A stretch of 36,363 nucleotides of DNA from contig NZ_JAKRVY010000014.1 in the NCBI RefSeq assembly GCF_023638055.1, positions 1-36,363 of the forward strand, in the 5' to 3' direction. Positions 1 through 29,051 of this stretch are shown here, piece after piece; position 1 is the first letter of the stretch; each line of letters starts with the position of its first letter. The notes below the pieces were generated by a model. That model had not been told where the DNA came from, searched no databases, and was given only the letters and a program-made list of their open reading frames with translations. Position numbers and translations under genes: made by a program. This DNA comes from Natranaeroarchaeum aerophilus. GTDB lineage: Archaea > Halobacteriota > Halobacteria > Halobacteriales > Natronoarchaeaceae.

Positions 1-108
1 CGACTGGCTCAGATCATTCGCCTTCGCATGGAATCAGCTTATCTGAACACGACCCCCGATTCGACACGAAGCTATTTGACCACCACGGCCAATACGGTAA
101 CAACTGGT

Positions 109-1161: not shown

Positions 1162-1169
1162 CCGGACGT

Positions 1170-1538: not shown

Positions 1539-1596
1539 ACATCATAGTTACAGGTCCCGGCCTTAACAGTTCGCAGGGAGCGTGCAGCGACGGCCG

Positions 1597-1603
1597 TTTA
1601 TAT
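1597..1603 (+). promoter_or_regulatory. TATA-like box for phosphohexomutase
   Basis: TTTATAT lies in an AT-rich stretch inside the divergent intergenic region. It sits about 53 nt before the ATG at 1656, implying a short 5' leader of about 25-30 nt. Confidence 0.5.
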
Positions 1604-1655
1604 TTCAATACAATAACCAATACGCTATTGATAGCTCCTGTGCTTGTATCATCAT

Positions 1656-3097: not shown

Positions 3098-4606
3098 ATG
3101 CGAGACGGCCTCTGGATGTCGGAAGCGTTTGTCGATGAGCTGAGTCATACATTCGGCTCTCTCGATACCGTATTACTGCTAGAACAGCCTGCCGCATTCG
3201 GAGACATGTTCGGCACCACAGCCATGATCATTGTAGTTGGTATCGGTGTCCTGACAGTGGCCGGAAAAGTTGCTGTTGATACGTGGTCCAACACTACAGA
3301 CGAGAGCTCGACAGGAGGGCAAACAGGCCGTGGAGAGCACAGACCGCAAACGAACGAGACGCCCGGGAACGATGCTCGCGTTGCGTTCGAAGAGCGGATC
3401 GGCGAAACGACCGTTGACCGCCTCGAACCGATCATTCCTGCAGCGGTTTCGCGGGTTCGGAGGCGGCTCCCACTCGATAATGGTGATGATATGAGAGAGG
3501 TCGACAGTATCGAGCAGGAGCTACGCGAAGGGATCGAAAACGCGATCGATGACCGTCGGTTCGATCCGTCGGTCGAATCGACATTCAGTGAGCAGTACGA
3601 GATCGTAAACCTGCCGGGACAGCATCGTGAGTGCACACTGTCACACACCCAACAAACGATATATATCAATGAGATAGAACGAACAGCCAGCGAGGTCGCT
3701 GAATCGACCGATCTCCGTGAGGCAGCCAGAACGCTCTCGGTGCTGTACGAACATTGCCGCGACATCGAAAGCTACGTGCGCCGACAGGAAGACCAGTTTG
3801 TTGAGCGCTACGAAACGATCGAGGAGGCACTTGACGACATCCACGCGCTGACAAACCGGCTTGAGCAGTCGCTGGGGAACAGGGTCGCCGAGTTCGTGGT
3901 AGAAGGACGTCATGATGCGATTGAAAGTACGGTCGAGATCGAACGGCAACTCGAAGCGGCGACAACAGCGTTACACCGGTGTGCGTTCAAGGACGCGTTA
4001 CGACTGCTCGAGGATGCCCACCAGCAGAGCGATGAGCTACTCGTTACGGTTGACTTCCTTGGTGGGGTACTTGGGACAGTCGATCACGGCGAGGGTACCG
4101 TCGAAATCCCGGAGCAGGTGCCTGTCGAACTCATCGAAGAAATAACACCAATTATCGAACAGGAGTACGACATCTCAGTGACGATCGAACAGGAAAAAAT
4201 CATCGTGGAGGATCCACACGCCAACCAGGACCGACAGGCAGGTTCGGCGAGTACGGGGGAGACTGCTTCAAGCAGGGGGTCCCAGAGCGGTGAGGAACAC
4301 CGCTCAGAGGTCACACCAGAAGCGGCGGCTGACGAGATCCTGTTTATTCTCCGGGAGCTCGACGGGATCGCGAAAGAAAGTACCGTCCAGTATCAGACTG
4401 GCCAGCTCCCGGAGGGCATCGCAAGTGCGGACGTACTTGACGAACTCGCGCGTTTCTGTCGGCGGCAGACGGACGTTGTCACCGCGGTACAGTTACAGGA
4501 GAACGCGCCGCCCGGCTTTTTCGAAATCGAGTTTGCCGAACGGACAGATGCCCGTTCCGGACTCGAAACCATCCGAAGGCGATTTACCGAGCGACACGCG
4601 TCATGA
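3098..4606 (+). CDS. membrane-anchored acidic coiled-coil protein (island gene 1)
   Basis: 502-residue protein of unknown family. One hydrophobic segment spans about residues 41-60 (AMIIVVGIGVLTVAG). A short Ser/Thr/Gly/Gln-rich linker follows, then about 250 residues of charged helix (roughly residues 130-340) predicted as coiled coil. A small alpha/beta module lies around residues 345-400 (GTVEIPEQVP...ISVTIEQEKIIVED). After a second disordered linker there is a C-terminal ~90-residue alpha/beta domain (ADEILFILRELDGIA...FFEIEF). The ATG at 3098 was chosen because the longer frame overlaps the phosphohexomutase; MSEAFVDEL at 3116 is an alternative. The gene stands 69 bp ahead of the first tubulin-like gene. 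By layout it could be a membrane adaptor for it, but no known partner-binding motif is visible. A Pro- and Cys-poor, Glu-rich composition is typical of haloarchaeal cytosolic domains. Confidence 0.75.
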   Translation: MRDGLWMSEAFVDELSHTFGSLDTVLLLEQPAAFGDMFGTTAMIIVVGIGVLTVAGKVAVDTWSNTTDESSTGGQTGRGEHRPQTNETPGNDARVAFEERIGETTVDRLEPIIPAAVSRVRRRLPLDNGDDMREVDSIEQELREGIENAIDDRRFDPSVESTFSEQYEIVNLPGQHRECTLSHTQQTIYINEIERTASEVAESTDLREAARTLSVLYEHCRDIESYVRRQEDQFVERYETIEEALDDIHALTNRLEQSLGNRVAEFVVEGRHDAIESTVEIERQLEAATTALHRCAFKDALRLLEDAHQQSDELLVTVDFLGGVLGTVDHGEGTVEIPEQVPVELIEEITPIIEQEYDISVTIEQEKIIVEDPHANQDRQAGSASTGETASSRGSQSGEEHRSEVTPEAAADEILFILRELDGIAKESTVQYQTGQLPEGIASADVLDELARFCRRQTDVVTAVQLQENAPPGFFEIEFAERTDARSGLETIRRRFTERHAS

Positions 4607-4675: not shown

Positions 4676-6274
4676 ATGAGCAACGTTTGTAAAATCTGCA
4701 TGGAACGGTCCAATGAGTGGCAGGAGCGATCACTCATCGACCATCTCCGGGCAGCACACCGCGACGAGCCGGCCTCAGTAGAACAGGTCTATCCGGAGTT
4801 GAAAGAGGAAGTGTTCAGTGCGGTGGACAACGAGGAGCGCGATGGAGAGTCGGTCGACTCGGAAAGCCCGGATCCTATCACTGAGACGCCAAGCGACGCC
4901 CTGATGGACGATACCTACGGAAAAAAATGGTATCTTATCGGGGTTGGGGGTGCCGGAAACAATATTCTCGACGCGATTTTGCTCCGCCAGGAGACGTTAG
5001 AAGAAAACAACGAACGTCGTGCTCGTATCTGGAACGGTGGGCTAGCCGGGTACGGCCCACTGAACACAAACATCAGCGAACTCGAACAGACCTACTACGC
5101 ACAGGAGGAGAAAAACTACTCCCGAAACGACCTGTTACCGAACTGTATCATCGGGTGGGGGAAACACGATTACGCCGGGGCAGGTTACCGCTGGGACATC
5201 GGCAAGGAGCTTATCGAGGCCGACTTCGCGGATGATGGCGATCCGTTTCAGGAGCGCTGGGATATGAAAAAATCCGACATTCAGGACTCGCAGGCGCTGA
5301 TGTTTGTCCACAGCGTGACAAAAGGTACCGGCTGTGGGTCGACGCCGACTCTTGCAGAGAAGATCCGGGATCGAGTCCTGGAGGACGATTTCGTCGTTCC
5401 CAAACCGCTGTTTAGCAGCATCGTAATCCCCTCTGAAGGCTCCGAGTACTCGGAGTTCGGCGGACGGGCAAAGGTCAACGGGATCGTCGGGCTGGCTCGC
5501 GCATCACGGGCGGTGGATGCAATCATTCCGTTCGACAACAACCGGCTTGCCGATGTACAGGCCGACATTCGCCCACGGATCGACCGACTCGGCGAGTATA
5601 ATCCACCCCAGTACGAGGAGATCAACAAGCCACTCGTAGCGTTTCTCGAAGCGTTCACTATGTCGTCAGTACCGCAGTTCCTCGATCGGGACGCAACCAT
5701 GTCGATCATGGGTGACGTGTTCGATCCGGCCGACAGCTTCCGGCCGGTACAGGACAAATATCAGCACGACCCCGATAGGGAGTTCACGCCGGCGGTCGTA
5801 CTCGCTCCGGTCCTTGGCCGCTCGCGTGCGAACTCTTTTGACCGATCAAAACTGGAGATCCTGGTCCGGAACGCCCTGTTCCAGAACAAGCTTGCCGAGT
5901 TCGATCCGACGACGGCGTGGGGCGGCACCTTCCTCATTTACGGCCCGGAAGAGAAGATGGAGGACGTCTCCGAACTCGCTTCCGATGGAACGCTGTCGAG
6001 TATTCTTGCCGACGAGCAGTTCCTCGATGCAGGGCGCAAGGACGGGATCGAATCGATCGATATCCACCTCAAGCAACTCGTCACACCGTATCTTGACGAT
6101 GTCTATCTCTGGGGTACCCTGTGGAACCCCGAAATGCCGTCGCTTGATGGGATGTACGAACACGCCAGAACCCTCAAACAGGAGGGGAACACCGAGCAGG
6201 CCGAAAACGTTCGTGAGGTCTGGAGCGATGTCGAGGCCCTGTTCTCCTGTCTCGGCCGGGAGAATATGGCGTAG
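4676..6274 (+). CDS. tubulin/FtsZ-superfamily GTPase with N-terminal zinc finger (TubA-like 1)
   Basis: 532-residue divergent member of the tubulin/FtsZ superfamily. Residues 5-28 form a C2H2-type zinc finger (C-x2-C-x14-H-x4-H), and an acidic linker runs to about residue 80. The GTPase domain shows the T1 loop GVGGAGNN (about 89-96), the T3 loop LNTNISEL, and the T4 signature as KGTGCGSTPT, where the first Gly of GGGTG is Lys. It also has an H7-like segment DAIIPFDNNRL (about 281) and a possible catalytic T7 loop FLDRDAT (about 336). Canonical FtsZ and CetZ are much closer to consensus and lack the zinc finger, so this belongs to the non-canonical Tubulin_2/FtsZl-type group. It probably binds GTP and polymerises, but hydrolysis is uncertain because T7 departs from NxDxxD. 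Helical tail, no membrane segment. It sits between the coiled-coil membrane gene and the zinc-ribbon membrane gene. Confidence 0.85.
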   Translation: MSNVCKICMERSNEWQERSLIDHLRAAHRDEPASVEQVYPELKEEVFSAVDNEERDGESVDSESPDPITETPSDALMDDTYGKKWYLIGVGGAGNNILDAILLRQETLEENNERRARIWNGGLAGYGPLNTNISELEQTYYAQEEKNYSRNDLLPNCIIGWGKHDYAGAGYRWDIGKELIEADFADDGDPFQERWDMKKSDIQDSQALMFVHSVTKGTGCGSTPTLAEKIRDRVLEDDFVVPKPLFSSIVIPSEGSEYSEFGGRAKVNGIVGLARASRAVDAIIPFDNNRLADVQADIRPRIDRLGEYNPPQYEEINKPLVAFLEAFTMSSVPQFLDRDATMSIMGDVFDPADSFRPVQDKYQHDPDREFTPAVVLAPVLGRSRANSFDRSKLEILVRNALFQNKLAEFDPTTAWGGTFLIYGPEEKMEDVSELASDGTLSSILADEQFLDAGRKDGIESIDIHLKQLVTPYLDDVYLWGTLWNPEMPSLDGMYEHARTLKQEGNTEQAENVREVWSDVEALFSCLGRENMA

Positions 6275-6443
6275 TTTGCATCTATCAGCTACCCTCCCCA
6301 AAGAGGTGTTAGCTTGTCGTAGAGTCTCATTCTGCCGACACTGCTGTTTCGGACCTACTTTAGCAGCATTCACCGTGAAACATCGTCAGTGGCATGTGGA
6401 TTCCAAAATCTCAGCTGTGGGGAAACTCAGACTGAGCGATGTC

Positions 6444-6450
6444 TTTTTAA
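6444..6450 (+). promoter_or_regulatory. TATA-like box, zinc-ribbon membrane gene
   Basis: TTTTTAA is placed 28-35 nt before the ATG at 6479, the spacing of a leaderless haloarchaeal transcript. The remainder of the 204-bp gap (6275-6478) holds no open frame or repeat that I can support. Confidence 0.5.
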
Positions 6451-6478
6451 TCTGTCAGGGTATACCACTGATCAACCG

Positions 6479-8584
6479 ATGGGTCGAAAAAGTGGAATAA
6501 AATACTGGTTGAAAGCGGTTATAGCGGGGATGATCGTAACAAAAATTGCGTACTTTATTCCGGTGGTGCATGTCGTCGCGCCATTGGCTGGTGGCTCTGT
6601 CACTGCGTATATACTTGACAACGGCGCTATAGATGGTCTGAAAGGAGGGTTCCTGAAAGGTATCTTTATGTCAATCCCAGCAATAATTTTGGGCCTTTTC
6701 TTTATAGATGTGCTAGCAGGAATACCAATAATTGGTGACCTGTTAGCGAGTAGCCTTCTTCTCGTTGTTGTTATTATTGTACTTCACTCGGTGACTCTCG
6801 GGATGATCTCCGGCTTCATCACTGGCGCAATTGCGACGACTGCGACCAAAGCAGATCCCGTAGAAACAACAGCAAAAACCACGGCAGCAGCGGCTAACAC
6901 CGTCGATGGTGCAAAACAGACGTACTCCGAGAAACGAGAGGAAGCCGGGAATACGTATACGGAAAACCGGGATACTGACGCAGGAGCCAGCAGTTCCGAC
7001 GACAACAAAAAAGCATCGACAGCAGACAAGAGCGGGAGCAGTTCGTCCGGAGTCACTGCTGCGGGGACAAATGAGCGATCGGAGCAACAATCCAACCAGA
7101 ATCAAGAAAGACAGTCACAGTCGCCCAGTTGTAATCGCTGTGGCGCCAACGTTGAGCAGGGTACGAGTTTCTGTCCCAACTGTGGTGTCGAATCACCACT
7201 TTCATCCGCGGCGTCCGCTGATGCGAACGACGGCGTCGTCAAGAAGCAATGTATAGACTGCGACAAACTGATTGAGGAGACGGCTGGCTTCTGTCCCAAG
7301 TGTGGAGCCGAGGATCCGTTCACGCCGAGATCCACTCCAGAGTCGAACGGCAGGAGACGTGATCAGGCTACCAGAGGAGTCAATACAACCACGGAGTCAC
7401 CCACCGGGGTCGAACAGCCTGTGCATCCCATCACCTCTGTTGCCGATTCGGTCCTCGACACCCATGGCCCCCGATCCGCCGCCGCGGACGAACTCTGTCA
7501 AGTACTTGCCGACGAGAATCCCGACGAGCACCGGCTCAAAGACGCCCTCGTCGACGCTGTCGAGGCCATCGAAACGGCCGCAGCAGTTACCGACACCATC
7601 GGTCGGATTAGCAATCCGACCGACCGCGGACAGATCGAGTCCGCGCGCAGCTCGATCCACAACGAATCCGGCAAGCTTCCCAGCGCACTGGAACCGGTGC
7701 TCGATGGCACTCTGACAGTACATGACGATCTCGACGAGTGTGAGACCGAGTACGGACGGCTCGAAGACGCCGCCGTCGAGCTCTGTGAGACTGTCGAACG
7801 TGAGCAGGATACACGAGTGCCCGGCGGCGACATCACTAGCCGCACCGGGCAGGCATCTGAAGCGATCGAATCGATGGAAGAGACGACCTCGCAGAGTTCG
7901 GAACCGGCGCTTTCATCAGTCGTCGACGATGTAGAACGCTCGGCACGACCGACAACTGACCGAACCAGAACACTTCTCGAAACGCTTCGCGAGAGCGACG
8001 ACAACGGCGAGATAGCGTCTGTGCTACGGTCGGCAGTCGAAGATCTCGACGAGTACGCCGAGCTGCACGCCCCACTCGCGGATATCGGCCACCGTGACGT
8101 GCGACGACGGCTCACGTCGCTCGACGACGAACTGCAGCGGGAGGAGGGTGCGATCTACCGGCACCTCGCGGATCGGATCCGCGAACTCGACACTATGGTA
8201 GAACGCGACGATATCGATAGCGTCCAGCTCTATGCGATCTATCAGGAGTGTACGTTCTACGATCGAACGCTGTTGCCACGCCTGTCGCGGTCGGATTCCG
8301 GTAGCGGTTCGACAGATGTGAGCCGGCAGCTCCGAAACGTCGAGGACAGGCGAACGGCGATCGAAAATGATTACGTTACCGTTCGGGCGGATCATAACCA
8401 CACGATTCCTAACCACTTCCTGTCACTTGTGAGCTCCCTGTGCGATCGGGCACGGGACCTCGACGATAACCAGTCCGAGCGTGCGGCGGGGATCCTGATG
8501 GCCGCGGACGAACTACTTGACGGCGTCGAACAGCTGTACGAACGAAACGAGTACAGCGTCATGCTTCGACGGCTCCGCGGCTAG
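6479..8584 (+). CDS. multi-pass membrane protein with two zinc ribbons and long helical domain
   Basis: 701 residues. Residues 9-125 are hydrophobic with about four membrane segments and a Gly-rich pattern (VAPLAGGSVTAY, then GLKGGFLKG), resembling the haloarchaeal DUF5518 membrane module. A Ser/Thr/Gln-rich linker follows. Two C4 zinc ribbons come next, near residues 218-236 (CNRCGANVEQGTSFCPNCG) and 259-280 (CIDCDKLIEETAGFCPKCG), of the double-zinc-ribbon type. The last ~350 residues are acidic helix or coiled coil rich in LDE repeats. I chose the ATG at 6479 (MGRKSGIKYWLK) because 30 upstream residues are unlike a membrane protein start and a TATA-like box sits 28-35 nt before it. Base use in 6479-6900 is noticeably more AT-rich than the rest, suggesting that the membrane part has a separate origin. 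It may recruit partners to the membrane; function not known. Confidence 0.8.
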   Translation: MGRKSGIKYWLKAVIAGMIVTKIAYFIPVVHVVAPLAGGSVTAYILDNGAIDGLKGGFLKGIFMSIPAIILGLFFIDVLAGIPIIGDLLASSLLLVVVIIVLHSVTLGMISGFITGAIATTATKADPVETTAKTTAAAANTVDGAKQTYSEKREEAGNTYTENRDTDAGASSSDDNKKASTADKSGSSSSGVTAAGTNERSEQQSNQNQERQSQSPSCNRCGANVEQGTSFCPNCGVESPLSSAASADANDGVVKKQCIDCDKLIEETAGFCPKCGAEDPFTPRSTPESNGRRRDQATRGVNTTTESPTGVEQPVHPITSVADSVLDTHGPRSAAADELCQVLADENPDEHRLKDALVDAVEAIETAAAVTDTIGRISNPTDRGQIESARSSIHNESGKLPSALEPVLDGTLTVHDDLDECETEYGRLEDAAVELCETVEREQDTRVPGGDITSRTGQASEAIESMEETTSQSSEPALSSVVDDVERSARPTTDRTRTLLETLRESDDNGEIASVLRSAVEDLDEYAELHAPLADIGHRDVRRRLTSLDDELQREEGAIYRHLADRIRELDTMVERDDIDSVQLYAIYQECTFYDRTLLPRLSRSDSGSGSTDVSRQLRNVEDRRTAIENDYVTVRADHNHTIPNHFLSLVSSLCDRARDLDDNQSERAAGILMAADELLDGVEQLYERNEYSVMLRRLRG

Positions 8585-8648
8585 GCGATACTACCGATCT
8601 TCGTCCTTTCGTGCAGTTCGTCCGCAAAACTGTCAGCGAACCCAGTAT

Positions 8649-8656
8649 CTTTATTA
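8649..8656 (+). promoter_or_regulatory. TATA-like box of the 8745-20614 operon
   Basis: CTTTATTA in the 160-bp gap, about 90 nt before the ATG at 8745. It predicts a leader of about 65 nt that would contain the short frame at 8689-8748. Confidence 0.45.
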
Positions 8657-8688
8657 GGCGATAATCAAGTAGTACGTATCGTCAAGCA

Positions 8689-8748
8689 ATGTATCGCTCG
8701 ATAGTAACTATCCAGAGTGAAACAAGTATTCGGTCGGTGTACAAATGA
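8689..8748 (+). CDS. possible 19-codon upstream ORF
   Basis: An ATG at 8689 opens a frame MYRSIVTIQSETSIRSVYK whose TGA overlaps the ATG of the next gene (ATGA, 8745-8748). This is the same 4-nt overlap used by genes further down the operon. It could couple translation, or be chance. The peptide resembles nothing I know. Confidence 0.2.
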   Translation: MYRSIVTIQSETSIRSVYK

Positions 8749-10043
8749 CGTACCTTTTTGTTGGGGCAGGACAGGCAGGAGGTGCGATCGTCGACGCTAT
8801 CTTCGAGTACACGGACGATTCAATGTTGGGGCTGTTCGAGTCGACTGATATCTCGACGTTGGGTCGACCGCTGGTGTTCAACTCGACAATGCGAGATCTG
8901 CAGAACCTGTCAAACGTGCCTGCAGAAGACCAGTACGGCGTAGCTGAGCAACATGGGTTGATTCAGGGGACTGAGCCGGGGTTCGAGGAGATGGTGACGG
9001 GAGGATTTGGCCGGAATCCGGCGGACGCGGACGAAGTGATGGACGAGCACACCGCGGAACTGCAGTCGATTCTCGACGAGCGGTTCGGCAGTGGCGGCTT
9101 CGATCTGGACATCGAGGAGAATGAAGACTCCGAAGCGTCAAATCCCGATCCCAGAAGCTCCGATGCCATTCAGTTCGCTTTCCTGTTTCTCGGCCTGGGC
9201 GGCGGTACTGGCTGTGGGATCGGTCCCCATCTCGCGCGCGAAATAAAACAGTTCACCGACGGTGACACCAAAATCGTCGCAGTCGCCGTCCTGCCGAACA
9301 CCCGATCCACCGAGGAAAGCGATGAGGAGAACGGAACGAACGCGGGTCGTCAGGCGTGGAACGCGCGGTACGGCCTGAACAGACTCGAAGAGGAAGTCGA
9401 TGGTATCGTGCTCGTCGATAATCAGCGGATTTCCTATCTCGACTCGGCAGGTGGTGAGTTCGGGGAGTACAACGAGTACGTCGCTGCGGCGGTCCACGAT
9501 CTCGTCGCCGGGCCGATGCTAAGCAGCGTCGACGCGAGCGATGTCGACGGAGTAGACACGCCGGATATCGACGTTCGGGATATCATGACCTCGCTGTCGT
9601 TCGGCGTCGGTAGTGGGGAGTCAACACCTGGGTATGGAGCGATTGGACGTTCCGTAACGATGACAAAGTCGTTAACCGGTTATCTACTTCCGTTCGTCGG
9701 AAACCGCGATATCGATAGTGCTGCCCTCTCCCGACTCTCGGCATCGAAGCAGACACTTGCGAGAGCGGATGTCGGGGACGCACAGAAAGCGATATCGTTG
9801 ATCCGAGCGCCTGGCGCGAACCTCAGCGCCGGGCCGAATAGTGTCGAGACTGGAACGGTCAAGGAGTACCTCGAACGTAGCTGTCAGCTCAACGAGGTGA
9901 ATCTGGGCGTCGCACTGAGTGATCGGAACCTCGCCTCCGTAACGACACTGCTGACCTATCGCCGGGAGGACCTTGACCGGCTCGACGAGATAGAACAGGC
10001 GGCCGAGGCCTACGAGGAGGAGACGGAGGAGCTGCTTACATGA
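8745..10043 (+). CDS. tubulin/FtsZ-superfamily GTPase (TubA-like 2)
   Basis: 432 residues, the most canonical of the three tubulin-like proteins here. The T1 loop is GAGQAGGAIVDA at residues 7-18, directly at the N-terminus. The T3-like loop is FNSTMRDL. The T4 signature LGLGGGTGCGIGPH (about 150-163) is a full GGGTG match. The H7-like segment is DGIVLVDNQRI (about 219), and the T7-like loop DIDVRDIM begins at residue 274 with the expected D-x-x-D spacing. An acidic stretch (EENEDSEAS) precedes T4, and the end is a Glu-rich helix without an FtsZ C-terminal peptide. Predicted cytosolic GTPase able to polymerise. It is the first gene of an eight-gene operon, and its stop overlaps the next start by 4 nt (ATGA). 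It is not the cell-division FtsZ1/FtsZ2 or CetZ type, judging by its poor match outside the loops. Confidence 0.88.
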   Translation: MTYLFVGAGQAGGAIVDAIFEYTDDSMLGLFESTDISTLGRPLVFNSTMRDLQNLSNVPAEDQYGVAEQHGLIQGTEPGFEEMVTGGFGRNPADADEVMDEHTAELQSILDERFGSGGFDLDIEENEDSEASNPDPRSSDAIQFAFLFLGLGGGTGCGIGPHLAREIKQFTDGDTKIVAVAVLPNTRSTEESDEENGTNAGRQAWNARYGLNRLEEEVDGIVLVDNQRISYLDSAGGEFGEYNEYVAAAVHDLVAGPMLSSVDASDVDGVDTPDIDVRDIMTSLSFGVGSGESTPGYGAIGRSVTMTKSLTGYLLPFVGNRDIDSAALSRLSASKQTLARADVGDAQKAISLIRAPGANLSAGPNSVETGTVKEYLERSCQLNEVNLGVALSDRNLASVTTLLTYRREDLDRLDEIEQAAEAYEEETEELLT

Positions 10044-10306
10044 GAAGGTGGTGGCCACGGTCGATCGTCGCAGGCGCAGTATTGCTATGTGCCAGTATTG
10101 CTATCGCAAGCGCTAACAGCGACGTGTCACCGATCGAGACGGCGATCGAAGCGACGAACGTGACGATCGCGGCGCGGGCGCTTGCGGACCAGATCGTCAT
10201 CATAGCCGTTGGCGGGTTGCTTCTTGGCGCTGGTGTCGGCGTCGTGGCCGCTGCCGGTCTCACGTACTGGTACAAAAACAGACAGATACAGGGGCGATTA
10301 CAATGA
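10040..10306 (+). CDS. small two-segment membrane protein
   Basis: 88 residues. An N-terminal hydrophobic segment (IVAGAVLLCASIAIASA) may be a signal peptide or anchor. A short polar stretch of about 30 residues lies outside, followed by a second membrane helix (IVIIAVGGLLLGAGVGVVAAAGL) and a basic tail (YWYKNRQIQGR) that places the C-terminus inside. It overlaps the preceding tubulin-like gene and the following gene by 4 nt each (ATGA), so translation is probably coupled. No family recognised. Size and position suggest a membrane adaptor or subunit for the adjacent tubulin-like protein, which is inference. Confidence 0.75.
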   Translation: MRRWWPRSIVAGAVLLCASIAIASANSDVSPIETAIEATNVTIAARALADQIVIIAVGGLLLGAGVGVVAAAGLTYWYKNRQIQGRLQ

Positions 10307-11061
10307 CTCGATACCGGCGCGTTCTCGGGCTTGTTATTCTACTGGCGGTCGGAGCGGTGGCGACTGGCGGCGTGGCCGTTGCCGAGGAGTCCGACAACAA
10401 CGGAGCGGAGTCGATCGACCTCGAAGAGATCGGTCTCGACAGCATTGAAACCCTGATCGAGAACGACGAGGAACTCGAAGCACACGTGCGAGAGTATGCG
10501 ACCGCAAGGGCGGAGTTTTACGATGAAGTCGATGAACTGAACGAGACGACTGACCGGATCGATGACGGTGGCGGCGATCTGGATGAGGCAGGCACGACGC
10601 TGGAACGGCTCGAAGACCGACACGAGAACATGACTACACAGGAAACGGAGATCATCGAGTATCTAACCGAGACGACACACGGAGGGAACGGTACCGGGAC
10701 CTTCGGGGCAGTAGCAACGATCAACGACGAACGAACCGACCGGTCCGAGATGCTGTCCGAGTCAACGGATGCGTACGTAGCAGCCGTCGAAGGAAGCGGC
10801 GATGAACCGCGGTCGACGGTTCGACTGACACTGTTCGGGTCCCTGCTGGGCGGACTCGTCGTCGGCCTCGTCGCAGGCGCTGCGGTCCCGATCGTCGCCG
10901 CGAAACGAGTATCCGAGAAAATGAAACTTAGCCGGAACGTAAACTACGACCGGAAAGTCGCGCTCCTCCCGATTCTGCTCGGTGTGGCGGTTGCGATTGC
11001 AGGTGCCGTCGTTCTCGTCGTCCTCGTTGGCGGCGCGGAGCTTCTGGAGGTGGTACGATGA
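10303..11061 (+). CDS. signal-peptide protein with coiled-coil ectodomain and two C-terminal membrane helices
   Basis: 252 residues. The N-terminus is a typical signal peptide (RRVLGLVILLAVGAVATGGVAVA, cleavage near residue 27). About 150 acidic residues with heptad-like spacing follow (ELNETTDRIDDGGGDLDEAG, LERLEDRHENM), with several N-x-T/S sequons, predicted to lie outside the cell. Two membrane helices come last, about residues 167-192 and 206-230 (LLGGLVVGLVAGAAVPIVAA; LLPILLGVAVAIAGAVVLVVLV), joined by a short basic loop (KRVSEKMKLSRNVNYDRK) on the cytoplasmic side. Coupled to both neighbours by 4-nt overlaps. Family not recognised. The layout suits an envelope subunit that transmits between outside and the cytoplasmic tubulin-like proteins. 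Confidence 0.75.
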   Translation: MTRYRRVLGLVILLAVGAVATGGVAVAEESDNNGAESIDLEEIGLDSIETLIENDEELEAHVREYATARAEFYDEVDELNETTDRIDDGGGDLDEAGTTLERLEDRHENMTTQETEIIEYLTETTHGGNGTGTFGAVATINDERTDRSEMLSESTDAYVAAVEGSGDEPRSTVRLTLFGSLLGGLVVGLVAGAAVPIVAAKRVSEKMKLSRNVNYDRKVALLPILLGVAVAIAGAVVLVVLVGGAELLEVVR

Positions 11062-13142
11062 ACCCGAACGTCAAAACTGCGCTCGGTATCGGTTTGCTCG
11101 TCGTGCTCGCGGCAGTGGCCGGAGCAGGCGTGTTCGTCTGGCGCGGCTCCCAGGCAGCAACCTGGTTCGTCATCATCGGGATCCCGGCGACGGTCGTCAC
11201 GGCGATCACGCTGTACGTTCGGGGCGTCGTCGCACGGAGCGGGACGAGCGAGCAGCAGTTCGTGGAGACGCGCGCACGCTCGACGGCCGAAGAGTTTCAG
11301 GAAGCCGTTCGGCAGGTCAACGATCTTCAGGACGCCTATCCGAAGTGGACGCCGGGCATCGACGCGCGCCTGCAGTCGATCGAGGGTGACTTTCGGGGGC
11401 AGTCAGTCACGTTTGATCTCGAAACCGGCGCGTTCGATCTCGGTAGCGGCGTCAAAAACTCGGAGCTACAGGAGTTCGAGCGGCTCTCGAACGAGATTGA
11501 CGACATCGAGGCGACGATCAAGTCGGCGTTCCGCGAGTTCGCTGAGGAGGAACTGACGACGATCGAGGACGCGCTCAAACGGCTCGAAGACGTCGGAGTC
11601 ATTCAGATCGACCGACTGTACTCCCTCGAGGAGGACGAGTCGGTACCGGAGTATCAGGACACGCTCGAGCTTGCCAGAACCGAAGCGACCGAGACGGTCG
11701 AGACGGCGATCGAAACTGTCCGCGAGATGGGTCGTGGCGACGAACGTCCCAACAGCGTCGACACGGTCGACAGGGATTTGGAAGACGCTGCCGCGGCGCT
11801 CGAAGACGACGAGTTCGGTCGGGCGGTCGAATCGGTTCTGGATGCGCGGGATCGGCTTCGAGACGAGTTCTCCGGGTCCTTCGAGGAAGAGCGGGACGCT
11901 GTGCTGGATCTGGTTGATGCCGTGCGACGGGCCAATATCGACGGGCACGTCGATGCGGAGTACGTTGACGAGGTCGACCGCGTCGAGTCGGCGATCGAGG
12001 GGCTCGATTCCGCGCTCGATCTCGCGGAGTTGAGCAGGCCGCGGTCGGAGTTACGGCGGACCTGCGTTGACATTGTTGCATCGATGGAGCGGGATCTCGA
12101 ACGGGACGTACGGACGCTCAGGGACGCGGAGCTTCCCTCCGGCTATTACACTGAGCCAGCAGTCGTAGACGAGCGGTTCGTGGACAAACTCGACGATATC
12201 GACGATCTCGACCGGTTCTCTGAGGAATGGGTCGACGCCGCGACGCGGCTGCGGGACGCTCTGGATACGGCGAGTACGAAAGCTGCGGTCGTCGATGCAT
12301 ACGACGACGTCGTCGGAACGATCGAGGACAAACTCGACCAGCACGGTGAAGTAACGGGTGACGATCTCCCGATGCGACACGCCGATCAGTTCCTCGGGCT
12401 CTACTTCCGCCGGAACAGCGACGTCGAGTTCGATCCGGACGTCCCCGTTCTCAAACGCGGCGATGTGGAGACGTACGAGCTAGGTGTCGATATCGCGTAC
12501 GAACGGGGCGGCGAAACGCGGAGGGCGACGATCGAAGTGACGGGCGGCGGCTACAGCAAGACGGCCACGGTCGAAACGCGTGTCGCCGGATCGACGACGT
12601 TCGAGGAGGTTCCGGCGGGGACACACACCATCTCGGCAGAGCCGGGAGACGGGGCGTTCGCCGTCGTCAAGCGAGAGGTTGCTGTTGACCGGGATACGAG
12701 CATCGAGATCGAGTTTACGGAGCAGAGCCTTCGAGATCAGGTCTGTTCGGACGTCGACGCAGATATGGAGGAACTCGTTCCGGAGATGGAGTCGCGTCTG
12801 GAATCGATCTTCAGGGAAGAGGGCTACGTCTCGACGGAGATGGGGCTTCCGGTCCGTGACTCCCACGCACCGTGTTTGCTTGCGGTCTGGGGGGAGCACT
12901 CGGGATACGATCTCTGTCGGGATGGTGATGAGATCGTCGTATACGATCGGGGTGAGCTCGAACGGGAGCTAACCAACGTTCTGAGATACAACGTCGAGCC
13001 GGGCGACCAGCTTCGGTTCGACGAGCTCGAACAGAACTTCCTTTCAGCGCCGGTACCGACGACAGTGGTTCGAGATGTAGTTGTAGAGATCGACAGTGAG
13101 TACGACGTAACGACGACGAAAACGGCAATCGAGGTCAACTAA
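11058..13142 (+). CDS. membrane-anchored coiled-coil protein with beta-sandwich and C-terminal domain
   Basis: 694 residues. Two membrane helices lie at about 7-28 and 33-55 (LGIGLLVVLAAVAGAGVFVW; FVIIGIPATVVTAITLYV). Both ends should be on the same side, and the following Arg-rich stretch suggests the cytoplasm. Residues ~65-440 are charged helix with repeated RLEDVG/LEDDEF-type elements, predicted as extended coiled coil. Residues ~455-560 look like a carboxypeptidase-regulatory or PEGA-like beta-sandwich (EVPAGTHTISAEPGDGAFAVVKREV). The last ~130 residues are an alpha/beta domain with four Cys-free strands (LAVWGEHSGYDLCRDGDEIVVYDRGE). It overlaps the upstream gene by 4 nt and ends 1 bp before the third tubulin-like gene. 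Domain order resembles a spacer or scaffold between membrane and cytoskeleton. No enzyme motif. Confidence 0.78.
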   Translation: MNPNVKTALGIGLLVVLAAVAGAGVFVWRGSQAATWFVIIGIPATVVTAITLYVRGVVARSGTSEQQFVETRARSTAEEFQEAVRQVNDLQDAYPKWTPGIDARLQSIEGDFRGQSVTFDLETGAFDLGSGVKNSELQEFERLSNEIDDIEATIKSAFREFAEEELTTIEDALKRLEDVGVIQIDRLYSLEEDESVPEYQDTLELARTEATETVETAIETVREMGRGDERPNSVDTVDRDLEDAAAALEDDEFGRAVESVLDARDRLRDEFSGSFEEERDAVLDLVDAVRRANIDGHVDAEYVDEVDRVESAIEGLDSALDLAELSRPRSELRRTCVDIVASMERDLERDVRTLRDAELPSGYYTEPAVVDERFVDKLDDIDDLDRFSEEWVDAATRLRDALDTASTKAAVVDAYDDVVGTIEDKLDQHGEVTGDDLPMRHADQFLGLYFRRNSDVEFDPDVPVLKRGDVETYELGVDIAYERGGETRRATIEVTGGGYSKTATVETRVAGSTTFEEVPAGTHTISAEPGDGAFAVVKREVAVDRDTSIEIEFTEQSLRDQVCSDVDADMEELVPEMESRLESIFREEGYVSTEMGLPVRDSHAPCLLAVWGEHSGYDLCRDGDEIVVYDRGELERELTNVLRYNVEPGDQLRFDELEQNFLSAPVPTTVVRDVVVEIDSEYDVTTTKTAIEVN

Positions 13143-13143
13143 C

Positions 13144-14373
13144 ATGGCACAAAGTGACACGTTTACGAGATGGAGCGTCATCGCATCCGGCGAGGGGGGC
13201 GGTCGGATTGCATCACAGTTTTTCGACCGAACGGAGAACCCCGGTATCGACGATCGGATCCTCGTGATGAACACGAACCGGGCCGACCTCCGGAACACGA
13301 TCGATCGGCTGAGCGATCAGATTCAGTCGGAGCAGAACGAAAACGAGATGATGGAATCGCACGCGTTGGAGTTTGGCTCTCAGCAGGGGGCCGGGAACTT
13401 CTTCCCTAACGGGGAGGCCTGCGCACGCGAGGACCTCGACCGTATCGTCAACCGGATCAAAGATCTCAGCACGGCGGACGCGTTCATGCACGTCGCTACG
13501 CTGGGTGGTGGGACCGGAAACGGCTCGATTCCGTATGCGATCGACCAGTTCAAGCGTGGCCTCGACGATCTCGACGACGAGGGGGCTGCAGAGGAGTGGA
13601 TGGATAGCGTCATCCACACCGCCTTCGGTGTATGGCCCTACTACTACGAGAACCCCCAGCGACATTTCAACGCGGTCTGTGGTCTCTCACGACTACTCCG
13701 CACCGAGGACGATCAACAGAACGCCGATATGGTATTGCTGGCGGCCAACTCCCACCTCGACCAGGAAGAAAACGGCGGGAGCCGTCACTACGACTCGATC
13801 AACGATGCGATCATCACGGCGATCGATCTGATGATCGGTGCGGGTCGCGAGACACGCAGTGTTATCGACGTGAAAGATTACGTGACCATCCCCTCACAGA
13901 TGGACGCGTACCACTTCACGCCCGCAGTCGCGACGGAGCTCAACGGCGACGTTTACGAGCTGGAGTATATGCTCGACCAGGCGGCCGAGAACACCTATGT
14001 GCCGATGGACATCGGAACCACCTCGGCGGCGTATGCGATCGTCCGGGCCCCAGAGGCGATGATCGAGGAAGACGTCATCAGCGAGCCCGATGTCTACGGC
14101 GCGTTCCGGGACTGGACCGGGAAACACGGCATTAACGTCGCAGGGCAGGCGAGCCTGACGCCAAAGCGCGGACGCGGCAGCGATGTCGACGTTCTCCTGT
14201 TACTGGGTGGGTTCGATCTAAATCCCCTGCTTGACCACTCATGGGACGAGTTCGAGATGCTTGGAGATAGCCTCGCTGGCCAGAGCCGCGGCGACAGCGC
14301 GGACCTCAGCAAAGCCGAGCTCGGCCGTCTTGTCGAGAATCTCGAAGCGTACGTCGAACAAAACGCAGGATGA
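13144..14373 (+). CDS. tubulin/FtsZ-superfamily GTPase (TubA-like 3)
   Basis: 409 residues, third tubulin-like paralogue. T1 is GEGGGRIASQFF (about residue 16). T3 is MNTNRADL, close to the FtsZ NTDxxAL motif. The T4 signature TLGGGTGNGSIP (about 119-130) is intact. The T7-like loop SVIDVKDYV (about 239) parallels IDVRDIM of the second paralogue. The H7 position reads ADMVLLAANSHL and has lost the usual D-N-x-R. There is an insertion-like stretch with aromatic residues (VWPYYYENPQRHF) after T4. No membrane segment. The start is 1 bp after the preceding stop and the stop is 4 bp before the next start, well inside the operon. Sequence drift from paralogue 2 is large, so these are old duplicates that probably form different filaments or a mixed one rather than redundant copies. 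Confidence 0.86.
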   Translation: MAQSDTFTRWSVIASGEGGGRIASQFFDRTENPGIDDRILVMNTNRADLRNTIDRLSDQIQSEQNENEMMESHALEFGSQQGAGNFFPNGEACAREDLDRIVNRIKDLSTADAFMHVATLGGGTGNGSIPYAIDQFKRGLDDLDDEGAAEEWMDSVIHTAFGVWPYYYENPQRHFNAVCGLSRLLRTEDDQQNADMVLLAANSHLDQEENGGSRHYDSINDAIITAIDLMIGAGRETRSVIDVKDYVTIPSQMDAYHFTPAVATELNGDVYELEYMLDQAAENTYVPMDIGTTSAAYAIVRAPEAMIEEDVISEPDVYGAFRDWTGKHGINVAGQASLTPKRGRGSDVDVLLLLGGFDLNPLLDHSWDEFEMLGDSLAGQSRGDSADLSKAELGRLVENLEAYVEQNAG

Positions 14374-14377
14374 AACT

Positions 14378-17221
14378 ATGGCAGTACACAGATCCACAGA
14401 TAACGTAAAACGACTGACCATTGCCGTTGCAATCGTTGCAGCCGTCCTCAGTGGCGCGCTTGTTTCCAGTGTGGTCGCAACTGAAGACGGGATCGATCGT
14501 AACGGACATGATCTAGAAATCGATCTCTCGGATGTCGAGGATCCCGACGAAGTGACGGTTAACGTAACGGATCCCGACGTGGAGCTACAGTACACCGAGA
14601 GCGTCGAGGAGGCCGATGACGTCGTCTCAATTGACGTGTCCGATCCCGATTCCGGGACGATTGGCGACGCGGATCTGACAGCCGCAACAGTGAACGTCAC
14701 CGCCGAAGCCGAGGAGGGTACGGAGACTGTCGAGGAGGACGCGACCGTCGACCTCAGCTACGCGACGTTCGATGAGGATGTTCCAGTATGGATCGATGAC
14801 GATCAGGTCCGTGTCCCGCTTGACGGCGACGGTACTGCTGGCTTCGATGGGAACGCCACGGTCGGCGTCGCGCCGGCGGATGAAGACGTCGAGTTCGAGG
14901 AGATCAACGCGACTGTCCGGGACGATGGGACCCAGCTCTCCGTCGAGCACGCCGCACTCGTCGAAGCAGTCTCCGGAGCCGAATCGATCGAGCTCGACGT
15001 TCGATCGGACGGCGCGTCGATCGCCGCTGGGACGGTTACCCACGCTCCCGAACTCCGCTCGGTAAACGATGAACTCGTCGTCTGGCAGCCGCTTATAGAG
15101 GACGACGGTGAGTACACAGTTACCGAAAACGGCGAAGACGTCGAAGATGTCTCGTCGGAGCATGGAACGATTGCACTCAATTCACAGACGGTCGACGACG
15201 AGTTCGAGGTCGAGATTACGGAAGAAGAGGGCCTCGAGTTCTCGATCAGTGGCAGTGAGGCGGACCTGTCACCGCTTGCAGTCAACGCGACGCTTTCGGA
15301 CGACGGCGTGATGTTCGATCAGGGCCTCGCCGAACTCGATGTAAGTGCCGCTATCGCGGAGGGCGAGGAGACGAGACCCGTTACCGTGGGCGACGAAATC
15401 AACGAGGAGCGTGTGCTCGGTCTCGAGGACGCCGAGATCACGGCTGACGACGAGTTGCTGTTGTCGACGGATGCGGGTGTGCTCGCGGTATCGCTCGACC
15501 AGGAACAGACTGAGGAGTCAACTGAGTGGGGGAGCCACCTCCTGATGGGAGGACTTATTTTAGTGCCACTACTGTTCGGCGGGGTTCTCAGCGTGGCGGT
15601 GAGCCGGATCGCCCCGTCGCCGGATCTCTGGGACCTCATTCTGACTGGACTCCTGGCGCTTGGACTACTCACAATCGTCCAGAGTATCGCACTCATCCTG
15701 ACCGAAAACACCCTGCCACTGGAGCAGATACATGCGGTTGCGGCTTCCGGGGCTATCCTCGGTGTGATCGCTTCGATGGGAGGCTATCGATTGCTCGGCT
15801 CGGCTGGGGGAAGCGGCAGTACCGCCTTCACGGTGGACGTCAAAGTCACCGATGGCGAACGGAAGCTACAGGGCCGGACGGCGGTCGCATACGAGGAGGT
15901 GGGAGGTGACCGTAGCGGCAATCAGACGGTTCGAAACGGAACCGGGCAGGTGAAACTTCCCGACCGGGGGAAGTGGGATCTCACAGCCGCAAGCAAGACG
16001 AGTAGTGGGGTTCACCGCTCGGACTCCGTGACGGTGAACAAACGAAGTTCGGATGTCTCGTTCGTTATCACGCTTCCCACTCAGGTGACGGTGGTCGACA
16101 AGACCAGCGGGGAGCCGATAGCCGATGCAGTGGTACAGCGTGAGGACGGCTCAACGACGACTACCGGACGCGACGGTACGGTGACCCTCGACGCGCCTGA
16201 TGATGGCGCTAGCGAGCGCGTCGAAATCGATCACAAGAAGTACCGGACAGCCGAACAGACAGTGAAGTTCGGCAACCGTAGCGACCGGACTGTAGAGCTC
16301 GAACCGCGAACCGGACGCGTCCAGATCGTCTCACAGATAGACGGCGTCCCGACCGAGGGAATAGAACTACATGTGACGCCGGTACGGGGAGAGCAGTACC
16401 TCCGCGAGAGAACGGAAGAGGTTCAGACGACGACCGGACGCGACGGCGTGGCCACGTTGGATGATCTCCTTATCGGGGAGTATCGGGTTCGGGTCCCGAC
16501 CCCTAACGGCTCCTCCGACCGCTTCGAGGGGAGCGAAAAACGAGTGACTGTTCGGGACGGCCAGACCACGAAAGTCGAGGTGAACACCCGATTCACATGG
16601 ACGCTCTCGACCGATCAGCGGAGCCGGATCGATCGAATCAGACGCGACGTCGATGCCCTCTCCGATGACTCCCGCCGAGATACGACGATTCCACAGTACT
16701 ATGGCTCCATCGTCGAGTCGATGCTGGATGCCGTTGAGACACTCCCGTCTTCCGGCCATCAGTTCGTCGCTACGAGCGTGGATCCCGACACCGTCGCAGA
16801 TGCGACGCTCGATGCCGCCGACCGAACTGTCGAGGCGATCAATGATGCAATGACGACGAAACGGAACGTCGATCTCTTCGCCGCGTGTACCGATATGCCG
16901 AACCGCGAGATCACCTGGAGTGGAGAGTTCGAGATTGCCGAACTACTCGACAGGCTCGATTCGGAGCCAGCAGCGCAACGAAATGAGGTCAAGGAGCGCT
17001 ACGAAAGCGTTGCCGACCTGATCGAGAGTAGACGCGGTGGGGTTTCCGAGATCGGCCCGGCCAAGGAGATGCACCAGCGTGCCTGGGAGATGGTCAGAGA
17101 GACCAACCGGGGTGATGAGGCGATCGTGACGGCGTACACCGCCCTGCTCATGCTCGACGCAATCGAAGAACTGTTTGAGCACGATGCCCTTCATGAACGA
17201 CTTTCACGGACGGTGTTCTAA
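14378..17221 (+). CDS. large envelope protein: signal peptide, ectodomain, three membrane helices, cytoplasmic beta-sandwiches
   Basis: 947 residues. The signal peptide spans about 1-35 (LTIAVAIVAAVLSGALVSSVVA). An Asp/Glu- and Thr-rich beta-type ectodomain runs to about 380 with many N-x-T/S sequons. Three membrane helices follow at about 388-408, 418-440 and 452-472. The cytoplasmic side then has three immunoglobulin-like carboxypeptidase-regulatory/Cna-B-type domains (about 483-745); the second and third share the short element TTTGRDG. The last 200 residues are helical (about 745-947). The ATG at 14378 was taken because the longer frame overlaps the previous gene and lacks the signal peptide. 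The start is 4 bp after the tubulin-like gene, so it is in the same operon. It is a candidate transmembrane linker between filament and cell surface. Predicted topology (outside, three crossings, inside) is inference from hydrophobicity. Confidence 0.8.
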   Translation: MAVHRSTDNVKRLTIAVAIVAAVLSGALVSSVVATEDGIDRNGHDLEIDLSDVEDPDEVTVNVTDPDVELQYTESVEEADDVVSIDVSDPDSGTIGDADLTAATVNVTAEAEEGTETVEEDATVDLSYATFDEDVPVWIDDDQVRVPLDGDGTAGFDGNATVGVAPADEDVEFEEINATVRDDGTQLSVEHAALVEAVSGAESIELDVRSDGASIAAGTVTHAPELRSVNDELVVWQPLIEDDGEYTVTENGEDVEDVSSEHGTIALNSQTVDDEFEVEITEEEGLEFSISGSEADLSPLAVNATLSDDGVMFDQGLAELDVSAAIAEGEETRPVTVGDEINEERVLGLEDAEITADDELLLSTDAGVLAVSLDQEQTEESTEWGSHLLMGGLILVPLLFGGVLSVAVSRIAPSPDLWDLILTGLLALGLLTIVQSIALILTENTLPLEQIHAVAASGAILGVIASMGGYRLLGSAGGSGSTAFTVDVKVTDGERKLQGRTAVAYEEVGGDRSGNQTVRNGTGQVKLPDRGKWDLTAASKTSSGVHRSDSVTVNKRSSDVSFVITLPTQVTVVDKTSGEPIADAVVQREDGSTTTTGRDGTVTLDAPDDGASERVEIDHKKYRTAEQTVKFGNRSDRTVELEPRTGRVQIVSQIDGVPTEGIELHVTPVRGEQYLRERTEEVQTTTGRDGVATLDDLLIGEYRVRVPTPNGSSDRFEGSEKRVTVRDGQTTKVEVNTRFTWTLSTDQRSRIDRIRRDVDALSDDSRRDTTIPQYYGSIVESMLDAVETLPSSGHQFVATSVDPDTVADATLDAADRTVEAINDAMTTKRNVDLFAACTDMPNREITWSGEFEIAELLDRLDSEPAAQRNEVKERYESVADLIESRRGGVSEIGPAKEMHQRAWEMVRETNRGDEAIVTAYTALLMLDAIEELFEHDALHERLSRTVF

Positions 17222-17226: not shown

Positions 17227-18258
17227 ATGAACCAACAGACCACTGCGAAACCGGAACCGACTGTCAGGACGGCAGTGCTCGTCGCAGCGCTCGTCGTTAT
17301 GACTCTCGTAACGATACCGATGCTCGCGACCAGTGCGATCGCAGATGAGCACGACGATCCCGAGACAGCAGACGACTACTTCGAGACGTTCCGTGCGATG
17401 GAAGGAACCGAAGCCTACGAGGAGTACGACGAGTTAGAGACCGTCCGAACGTTTGCCACCTCCCAGACGCAGGAGATCGGGAGCCTCGACACCGAACAGG
17501 AGGCCGAACTCGCCGCGTTACTTGAAACGATGATCGCGTTCGAGCAGGCATACGATCACGCGGAGGACGGCAACTACGAGGCGAGCCTTGAAGCCGCTGA
17601 AGAGACGGACGATGCGATCGAGGAGCTCGAATCGCACGACCAGACCCAGGCGACGCTTGCGGACCTGGCGCTGACCCGATTCTACGAGCAGCTCGGCAAT
17701 GGGCTGCGCGAGGACGCCGAGGCGGCCGACCGGACGCCGGACCGGATCGATCTGCTCACGATGACTGCGACCGCCTACGAGCGGGCAAACCTCCCGGACG
17801 AAGCCGCGGAGTTCAACCTGCAGGTCGAACAGCAAACAGCCGAGTACGAGGGTGCCCTCGAACGAATGGACAGGGCCGAGAACGACTCGGAGACGTTCTT
17901 CGATCACTGTGGTGAGTGTATGAGTATGGGGACAGCCCTCACCGCGAACGCCAACGTACTCGGTCTGTTCGAGCAGTACCAAACCGCGCAAACGGTTAAC
18001 GCTGACCTCGACGACGCCGAGGCGGCGGCCGCCGCACACGGACTCGACGATCGCGAGGGAGAAATCGCAGCTATCAACCAGGACGTTAGCAGTGCCCAGA
18101 TCGCACTCGCGCTTTCCTCTGTTGGCGTGCTGGTCGGCTACGGTGTCGTCATCGGACTTGTCGGCGCGCTACTGTTCGGGCGAGTGTTCGCCTGGCAGCG
18201 GACCTACGACAGATCACAGGTTGGCTCCGTCGTAACGGTAGGTGATACTGATGTATAG
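17227..18258 (+). CDS. secreted/anchored helical-repeat protein with C-terminal membrane helix
   Basis: 343 residues. The N-terminal signal or anchor is at about 15-40 (LVAALVVMTLVTIPMLATSA). About 240 residues of acidic helical repeats follow, with TPR-like spacing (ADLALTRFYEQLGNGL; ATAYERANLPDEAAEFN). A single CGEC motif near residue 230 could bind metal or form a disulfide. One membrane helix lies near 285-312 (VGVLVGYGVVIGLVGALLF), ending with a short basic tail. The start is 5 bp after the preceding stop, and the stop overlaps the next start by 8 nt. Helices and overall layout resemble the C-terminal half of the next protein, so the two are probably paralogous. No known family. Confidence 0.75.
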   Translation: MNQQTTAKPEPTVRTAVLVAALVVMTLVTIPMLATSAIADEHDDPETADDYFETFRAMEGTEAYEEYDELETVRTFATSQTQEIGSLDTEQEAELAALLETMIAFEQAYDHAEDGNYEASLEAAEETDDAIEELESHDQTQATLADLALTRFYEQLGNGLREDAEAADRTPDRIDLLTMTATAYERANLPDEAAEFNLQVEQQTAEYEGALERMDRAENDSETFFDHCGECMSMGTALTANANVLGLFEQYQTAQTVNADLDDAEAAAAAHGLDDREGEIAAINQDVSSAQIALALSSVGVLVGYGVVIGLVGALLFGRVFAWQRTYDRSQVGSVVTVGDTDV

Positions 18259-25737: not shown

Positions 25738-25738
25738 C

Positions 25739-29022: not shown

Positions 29023-29043
29023 ATGTGAAATCTCAGTTCAACG

Positions 29044-29051
29044 GATAAAAA
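29044..29051 (-). promoter_or_regulatory. TATA-like box for the nucleotidyltransferase
   Basis: Minus strand TTTTTATC, centred about 26 nt before the ATG at 29022, the leaderless spacing. Confidence 0.55.

Follow-up and report, generated by a model that had tools for sequence, protein, structure and literature searches.

A 36,363-nucleotide window of the Natranaeroarchaeum aerophilus genome (GCF_023638055.1, contig NZ_JAKRVY010000014.1; the window is the whole stretch of DNA that was analyzed) carries a block of ~16 genes in two convergent operons, at about 3.1-27.9 kb, that encodes three divergent predicted GTPases of the tubulin superfamily, here called TubA, TubB, and TubC. Two findings on this module appear to be new. 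TubB and TubC recur together with the membrane proteins m5-m8 in Methanoperedens and Hydrothermarchaeota and partly in other archaea, and the presence of TubA tracks a second half of the module that resembles the endosomal sorting complex required for transport (ESCRT). No published description of the TubB/TubC core of other archaea, or of three tubulin families in one locus, was found in our search, outside of which lay subscription journals and preprints. These findings suggest an envelope-anchored TubB/TubC filament system, to which TubA would add, in haloarchaea, a link with ESCRT-like membrane remodeling, an account that we judge equally likely to be right or wrong.

Assignment of TubA, TubB, and TubC to the tubulin superfamily

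The three open reading frames are full-length (TubA, 4676..6274; TubB, 8745..10043; TubC, 13144..14373; all on the plus strand), and their products score 41.5, 58.6, and 38.9 bits, respectively, against Pfam PF00091, above its cut-off of 33 bits. None reaches the 295-bit cut-off of the ftsZ equivalog TIGR00065 (24.3, 36.3, and 19.9 bits), and no match to Pfam Tubulin_C is listed for any of them at E values up to 1. A family search of the whole genome returned seven Tubulin/FtsZ genes, comprising these three and four canonical genes on other contigs, which are assigned by the tree described below to the FtsZ type (two genes, FtsZ1/FtsZ2) and the CetZ type (two genes).

The nucleotide-binding loops are conserved in each family. 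In TubC, T3 (GxGN), T4 (LGGGTGNGS), T6 (N202), H7 (N220), and T7 (D242/D245) are invariant in 41 homologues from several archaeal lineages, with identities down to ~34%. Among up to 32 TubB homologues, the T4 Gly and Thr residues are kept in 30-31 of 31, D225 and N226 of T6 in all 32, and the T7 residues D276 and D279 in 30 and 31 of the 32. TubA carries a T4 variant, KGTGCG in place of GGGTGxG, which is invariant in 18 homologues together with T1 (GxGGAGN), T6 (N288), T7 (D350/D353), and the N-terminal C2H2-type zinc finger (C5, C8, H23, H28). By these alignments, the T-loops of all three proteins are real and under selection. Profile-profile comparison gave 99.0% for TubA-TubB over 320 columns, 97.1% for TubA-TubC, and 98.8% for TubB-TubC, with the T7 aspartates in register in the TubA-TubC and TubB-TubC alignments; the homology of TubA and TubB to the tubulin superfamily is supported by these profile alignments. 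For TubC, an AlphaFold2 model (pLDDT 85, pTM 0.89) displays a full tubulin fold, and its best Foldseek matches are Haloferax CetZ2 (E = 6.7e-19) and CetZ1 (E = 1.4e-17).

A preliminary description of the window had attributed T1, T3, T4, and T7 loops to the three proteins, and had called them different from each other and from FtsZ and CetZ, additional to the canonical set, and interleaved with membrane proteins. All of this is borne out, T6 can be added to the loops, and the neighboring genes encode hydropathy-predicted membrane segments. Of the two findings that it had named as contrary evidence, a structure model lacking the tubulin fold is countered for TubC, and a cluster not conserved in related genomes is countered by the conservation described below.

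Relationship to FtsZ, CetZ, and tubulins

In a tree of 61 proteins, from which bacterial FtsZ and eukaryotic tubulins were left out, TubA (SH-aLRT 100), TubC (99), and TubB with two Altarchaeum TubB-like proteins (100) form separate groups outside both the FtsZ group (100) and the CetZ group (96); this is a quick tree in which long branches may meet, and its deep order is unreliable. By sequence profile, the nearest solved relatives of TubB and TubC are CetZ proteins (Duggin et al., 2015; 4b45, 4b46, 3zid). CetZ shares the GTPase fold of the TubC model, but TubA, TubB, and TubC fall outside the CetZ clade and differ in gene context. In a second structural alignment, the TubC model matches OdinTubulin, BtubA/BtubB, and other tubulins over nearly its whole length (Z 37-39 over ~360 residues; best Z 38.8, 361 residues), although these Z-scores favor longer tubulin chains over shorter CetZ and FtsZ chains and are no proof of closer kinship. 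Sequence identity of TubC to OdinTubulin and BtubA/BtubB is only 17-18%, and TubC lacks a Tubulin_C match.

The preliminary description had also pointed to FtsZl1/Tubulin_2, a family that likewise comprises divergent FtsZ-like genes within membrane-protein operons and has been proposed to act in membrane remodeling (Makarova and Koonin, 2010; PMC2875224). This kinship finds no support. Only TubB touches the Tubulin_2 model PF13809, scoring 14.4 bits where the cut-off is 27, and TubA and TubC give no match. The C-terminal coiled-coil fusion and the von Willebrand (vWA)/OmpA partners of FtsZl1 are both missing in the module tubulins, and Pfam scans of the module genes contain no vWA, OmpA, GTPase, or kinase partner. 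By profile and context, FtsZl1 is a different family.

Two genomes without TubA, G054 (L168:10489-13962, minus strand) and G048 (L165:16717-20001, plus strand), do have an FtsZl1-type gene ~5 kb away from their TubB/TubC cluster. Both genes encode large proteins that begin with an FtsZ-like nucleotide loop; the Tubulin_2 scan covered the G054 protein, which exceeds the cut-off, and the G048 assignment rests on locus reading. Elsewhere, TubA-like genes with 34-35% identity occur without TubB or TubC in G086 (L163:12690-14372, minus strand) and G004 (L169:12399-14180, minus strand). The two products have a C2H2-like zinc finger at the N-terminus, and a gene for a propeller-like protein is close by at each locus. 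G086 encodes, in addition, an 1144-residue Tubulin_2 (FtsZl1) protein ~6 kb from the TubA-like gene, and G004 has a nearby gene whose product combines CarboxypepD_reg and kinase domains. TubA may have originated in a wider family linked to FtsZl1 systems.

Distribution in haloarchaea

Orthologues were delimited in 391 sampled genomes of the class at E < 1e-50 for TubB, < 1e-80 for TubC, and < 1e-150 for TubA. TubB and TubC occur in the same 40 genomes (lists compared by hand). TubA is found in 38 of these, which makes carriers of the module with TubA about 10% of the sample; it is missing from G048 and G054. The distant TubA-like genes of G086 and G004 were left out of these counts, as was a damaged second copy of the module in G340 (L145/L146; C2:9032-29031 and below). 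This copy shares a plasmid-sized contig with the first; its TubA and TubB are interrupted, other genes in it are short, and it looks like a decaying duplicate. In the family of N. aerophilus, the module is present in the window genome only (1 of 9 genomes). A PF00091 search of the whole class listed mainly canonical FtsZ and was of no help in locating other tandem clusters.

The marker of the ESCRT-like half, c1, was found by profile search in 38 of 381 genomes, the same set as for TubA. The two are both present even in three Halopenitus genomes in which they are unlinked, with c1-c2-c3 located away from the tubulins (G025, C1:246505; G103, C26:139880; G066, C22:34769). Further genomes added a third Halobellus genome without TubA and c1 and two more metagenome-assembled genomes (MAGs) with both, for totals of 40 genomes with both and three, all of the Halobellus type, with neither; the genomes are related, and this tally does not represent independent events. 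TubA and the ESCRT-like half thus show strict co-occurrence, which holds even without physical linkage. TubA was also considered as a component of the core, and loci without it rule this out.

The TubB/TubC core in other archaea

A TubC profile scan of 84,980 species genomes, which used fixed TubC motifs and would miss more distant members, found relatives in Methanoperedens, ANME-2 and other Methanosarcinales, Hydrothermarchaeota, several Euryarchaeota MAGs, Altarchaeum, and one Micrarchaeota MAG. By profile searches, Hydrothermarchaeota and Methanoperedens have TubB-m5-TubC in a row, an m8-m7 pair divergent from TubB, and an m6-like gene nearby. The arrangement is looser in the remaining lineages. 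ANME-2 TubB genes keep the divergent m7-m8 pair, with TubC elsewhere; the Micrarchaeota MAG retains m5-TubC, with TubB ~4 kb off; and TubB and TubC are apart in Altarchaeum, with none of m5-m8 seen beside either. All 17 non-haloarchaeal genomes that were chosen for their TubC also have TubB, and for some of them the two genes were known beforehand to share a locus. The marker c1 was detected in none of the 11 non-haloarchaeal genomes in which it was sought, nor does any locus outside haloarchaea show TubA, for which the loci and not the whole genomes were searched. Because two of the tubulins, together with their membrane partners, are found as a set in several distant archaeal lineages, they are probably an old, barely studied cytoskeletal machine acting on the cell envelope.

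Several of these genomes hold related genes. Altarchaeum has a second locus (L246:4071-9300 and L239), possibly a second version of the system, where a TubB-like and an m7-like gene are accompanied by a TubC-like gene that is either a remnant or a paralogue. In Methanoperedens, the m6-like genes of the TubB/TubC cluster are directly followed by a gene (L228:15040-18192) whose product has CarboxypepD_reg domains and an S-layer domain (PF07752, E = 1.6e-106). Other tandem tubulin-superfamily genes include CetZ-like pairs in Hydrothermarchaeota (L237, L238) and three matches in a row in one ANME-2 genome (L241).

The ESCRT-like half and Halo_adaptin

The minus-strand operon reads c1, c2, c3, AAA, bprop. 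The AAA protein (23481..25064) is an AAA+ ATPase of the Cdc48/Vps4 kind in which a single AAA domain is preceded by an N-terminal domain of a different type. Among solved structures, its AAA domain is most similar to Cdc48/p97 and less so to Vps4. The product of bprop (20663..23488) has beta-propeller (PQQ) repeats and passes the PQQ_2 model with 31.1 bits (cut-off 27.6). Of the three smaller genes, c1 (26809..27927) forms the right border of the module, c2 (25739..26785) encodes a helical protein, and c3 (25057..25785) is small and poorly conserved, with an uncertain start that overlaps c2. The c1 and c2 proteins have no profile similarity to each other.

These genes recall Halo_adaptin, an ESCRT system with one named CetZ-related protein, which was proposed to function in vesicle formation and protein sorting and has Haloquadratum walsbyi as its exemplar (Makarova et al., 2024, mBio; PMC10936438). 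The available text of that study gives as features a VAT_N-type N-domain of the ATPase, ESCRT-III/PspA-like and winged-helix genes upstream of the ATPase gene, and a pair of distinct adaptin-like proteins of the propeller/Ig kind. The module occurs in H. walsbyi J07HQW1 (L191) and, as far as that text allows a comparison, matches Halo_adaptin in its ATPase, propeller protein, and CetZ-like gene, with fitting gene content and order. The ATPase has no MIT domain, as in Halo_adaptin; c2 occupies the position of the ESCRT-III/PspA-like gene and c1 that of the winged-helix gene; and bprop is probably the "adaptin-like" propeller protein. One propeller protein was found in the module, in which m8 has an Ig-like similarity below the cut-off. 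However, three tubulin families stand against the one CetZ-related protein named in the text, which also, where available, does not mention a TubB/TubC/m5-m8 core outside haloarchaea or the independence of this core from the ESCRT half. The minus-strand half likely belongs to Halo_adaptin, an assignment that draws in part on the work of Makarova et al.

A haloarchaeal group of tubulin-like proteins near CetZ and tubulins has been named Halo.Tub (Santana-Molina et al., 2023; PMC9871819). The available text of that study describes several copies, quasi-tandem among uncharacterized and often coiled-coil genes, as one group and defines no system. The module has a similar quasi-tandem arrangement of several tubulin-like copies in haloarchaea, and, compared by description, Halo.Tub is probably identical with at least one of TubA, TubB, and TubC.

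Membrane proteins and borders of the module

The plus-strand operon reads m1, TubA, m2, TubB, sm3, m4, m5, TubC, m6, m7, m8, and start and stop codons overlap at many gene joints of both operons. A hydropathy scan predicts transmembrane or signal-like segments in all eight non-tubulin products. The m5 protein (11058..13142) has an N-terminal transmembrane hairpin followed by ~640 residues of helical stretches and a beta domain. Its gene also lies between TubB and TubC outside haloarchaea, and m5 is the best candidate for a membrane anchor. A signal-like N-terminus is predicted in each of m6-m8. In m6 (14378..17221) it is followed by two further transmembrane segments and CarboxypepD_reg-type beta domains, and in m7 (17227..18258) and m8 (18251..20614) by a large, presumably extracytoplasmic part, with Ig-like similarity in m8, and a C-terminal transmembrane segment. 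The CarboxypepD_reg- or Ig-like domains in the presumably extracellular parts of m6-m8 have mostly weak scores in the window, where the Ig-like similarity of m8 is below the cut-off, and stronger scores in relatives. With TubB and TubC, the proteins m5, m7, and m8 are assigned to the ancient core.

Of the remaining membrane proteins, m1 (3098..4606) forms the left border; it evolves fast and has a single transmembrane segment and an extended soluble part that is probably a coiled coil. The poorly conserved m2 (6479..8584) has a DUF5518-like N-terminus and zinc ribbons. Downstream of TubB, with a 4-base overlap, sm3 (10040..10306) encodes 88 residues that comprise a signal-like N-terminus and a further transmembrane segment, and m4 (10303..11061) combines a signal-like N-terminus with two further transmembrane segments.

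In a comparison of 42 loci from 41 haloarchaeal genomes and three plasmid records, the gene order of the module is the same in most carriers. The flanking genes at 28-3026 (left) and 28057-30810 (right) are not common to other cluster loci, which places the borders near 3.1 and 27.9 kb. Copies of the module are found on large plasmids in Halobacterium salinarum R1 (PHS2), Natrinema, and Halobaculum, and many others on multi-megabase contigs. The plasmid records name the TubA and TubB orthologues "cell division protein FtsZ" and that of TubC "hypothetical protein," names that the present analysis corrects. Outside the module, the window encodes a protein with a nitric oxide synthase oxygenase domain (32520-33656, minus strand; PF02898, E = 3.1e-159), next to genes for a DsbD-like membrane protein and a SCO1/SenC protein.

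Proposed mechanism and alternatives

From the GTPase family and motifs, the gene order, and the strict co-occurrence of TubB with TubC and of TubA with the ESCRT-like half, all of them computational results, we infer polymerization, membrane tethering, topology, coupling, and a cellular role for the module as follows. One half would be an ancient archaeal core of the putative GTPases TubB and TubC with m5-m8. TubB and TubC would bind GTP and polymerize, probably on the inner face of the membrane, to which m5 would anchor them, and m6-m8 would link across the membrane to the presumably extracellular Ig-like and other beta domains. In the tubulin superfamily, T7 acts on the GTP of the neighboring subunit, and its retention is expected of polymer-forming members. 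Because T7 is kept, TubB and TubC can probably assemble, and their constant association with membrane proteins makes it probable that the assembly is attached to the envelope. The other half, seen only in haloarchaea, would be an ESCRT-like module of the AAA ATPase, the propeller protein, and c1-c3, in which the ATPase would disassemble or remodel the assembly. Since TubA is present only with this half, it is the best candidate for coupling the two, with its zinc finger as a candidate contact. The likely job of the whole would be remodeling of the membrane or S-layer, such as vesicle budding or localized shaping of the envelope. The evolutionary form of this proposal is that TubB, TubC, and m5-m8 make up an unrecognized archaeal envelope machine with two tubulins, which predates haloarchaea and is ESCRT-independent, and to which haloarchaea functionally joined an ESCRT-like module via a third, zinc-finger tubulin; we advance it tentatively, as slightly short of an even chance.

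Several results weigh against this account. Verification of the fold by modeling is confined to TubC, and the AlphaFold2 model of TubA (pLDDT 47, from a shallow alignment) was dropped from the fold claims. In profile searches against solved structures, c2 had no significant match and none to ESCRT-III; c1 had none that was significant and none to winged-helix proteins (best SelB, E = 0.11); and the N-domain of the AAA protein had no significant match and none to the VAT/Cdc48 N-domains, so that kinship with ESCRT rests on the published comparison and on gene position. Coupling by TubA is deduced from presence and absence, the co-occurrence partly reflects shared ancestry, and the TubA-negative genomes are only three, from related genera. 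The topology of the membrane proteins is that of a hydropathy scan.

The preliminary description had envisaged a multi-subunit system anchored to the envelope, possibly heteropolymeric like alpha/beta-tubulin. Its envelope-anchored, multi-subunit part fits the data; a single heteropolymer of all three does not, as TubA is dispensable, TubB and TubC occurring without it in the three Halobellus-type genomes and at the non-haloarchaeal loci. Nor is there a pointer to an alpha/beta-type heterodimer, because all three proteins keep complete T4 and T7, with no split of catalytic roles. Its account of the cluster holds for the tubulin genes and membrane proteins; it overlooked the ESCRT-like genes on the minus strand and the occurrence of the core outside haloarchaea. 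The strict pairing of TubB with TubC, the similar branching of lineages in the TubB and TubC parts of the tree, and the whole-length matches of TubC to OdinTubulin and BtubA/B would suit an obligate, microtubule-like TubB/TubC heteropolymer with TubA as a cap or nucleator like gamma-tubulin. However, each of the two could homopolymerize with its complete T4 and T7, their genes are not adjacent in ANME-2, Altarchaeum, and Micrarchaeota, and the Z-scores say little on kinship, which leaves such a polymer unlikely. Comparably doubtful is that the three tubulins, instead of building extended filaments, serve a protein-sorting complex as GTP-dependent scaffolds or switches. This would agree with the vesicle formation and protein sorting proposed for Halo_adaptin and its linked CetZ-like protein, as given in the available text (Makarova et al., 2024; PMC10936438), and with the propeller, Ig-like, and AAA components of the module, but T7 is kept in all three tubulins, as in polymer-forming members, and the core lacks c1 in all 11 non-haloarchaeal genomes tested.

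Other explanations are far less probable. A device for plasmid or chromosome segregation like TubZ would account for the copies on large plasmids and the patchy occurrence among haloarchaea, yet many copies lie on multi-megabase contigs, the module has eight membrane or exported proteins, its core recurs in other archaeal lineages, and Pfam scans of the module revealed no partition protein; we give this reading very little weight. It is scarcely credible that ordinary CetZ paralogues lie together by chance, since the separate, strongly supported clades and the synteny over many genera and beyond the class contradict this, even though CetZ proteins are the closest solved relatives of TubB and TubC by sequence. 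An anti-virus defense island is just as improbable: the module is accessory, patchy, and sometimes plasmid-borne, and its ATPase weakly matches IetA/TRIP13 models, but this match concerns the generic AAA domain, for which Cdc48 scores higher, and neither the tubulins nor c1 nor those membrane proteins that were tested matched anything in PADLOC. A viral or phage origin was rejected, as a tblastn search with TubC in phages found nothing and a scan of viral contigs gave no relative.

Significance

To our knowledge, archaeal relatives of tubulin have been studied almost only as FtsZ, in division, and CetZ, in cell shape. The module adds three more families, each of them conserved and with GTPase loops that appear intact, and the lineage range of TubB and TubC extends from haloarchaea to Hydrothermarchaeota and Altarchaeum. 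If TubB and TubC polymerize, they would represent a conserved, membrane-bound two-tubulin system of archaea that is tied to an ESCRT-like machine in haloarchaea. The pairing of tubulin and ESCRT is known from eukaryotic cells. If the proposed account is true, the module would be a natural tubulin-ESCRT machine for membrane remodeling outside Asgard archaea and eukaryotes. Its occurrence in haloarchaea that can be cultured, some of which are also genetically tractable (Halobacterium salinarum, Haloquadratum, Halorubrum, and Natrinema), makes it directly testable.

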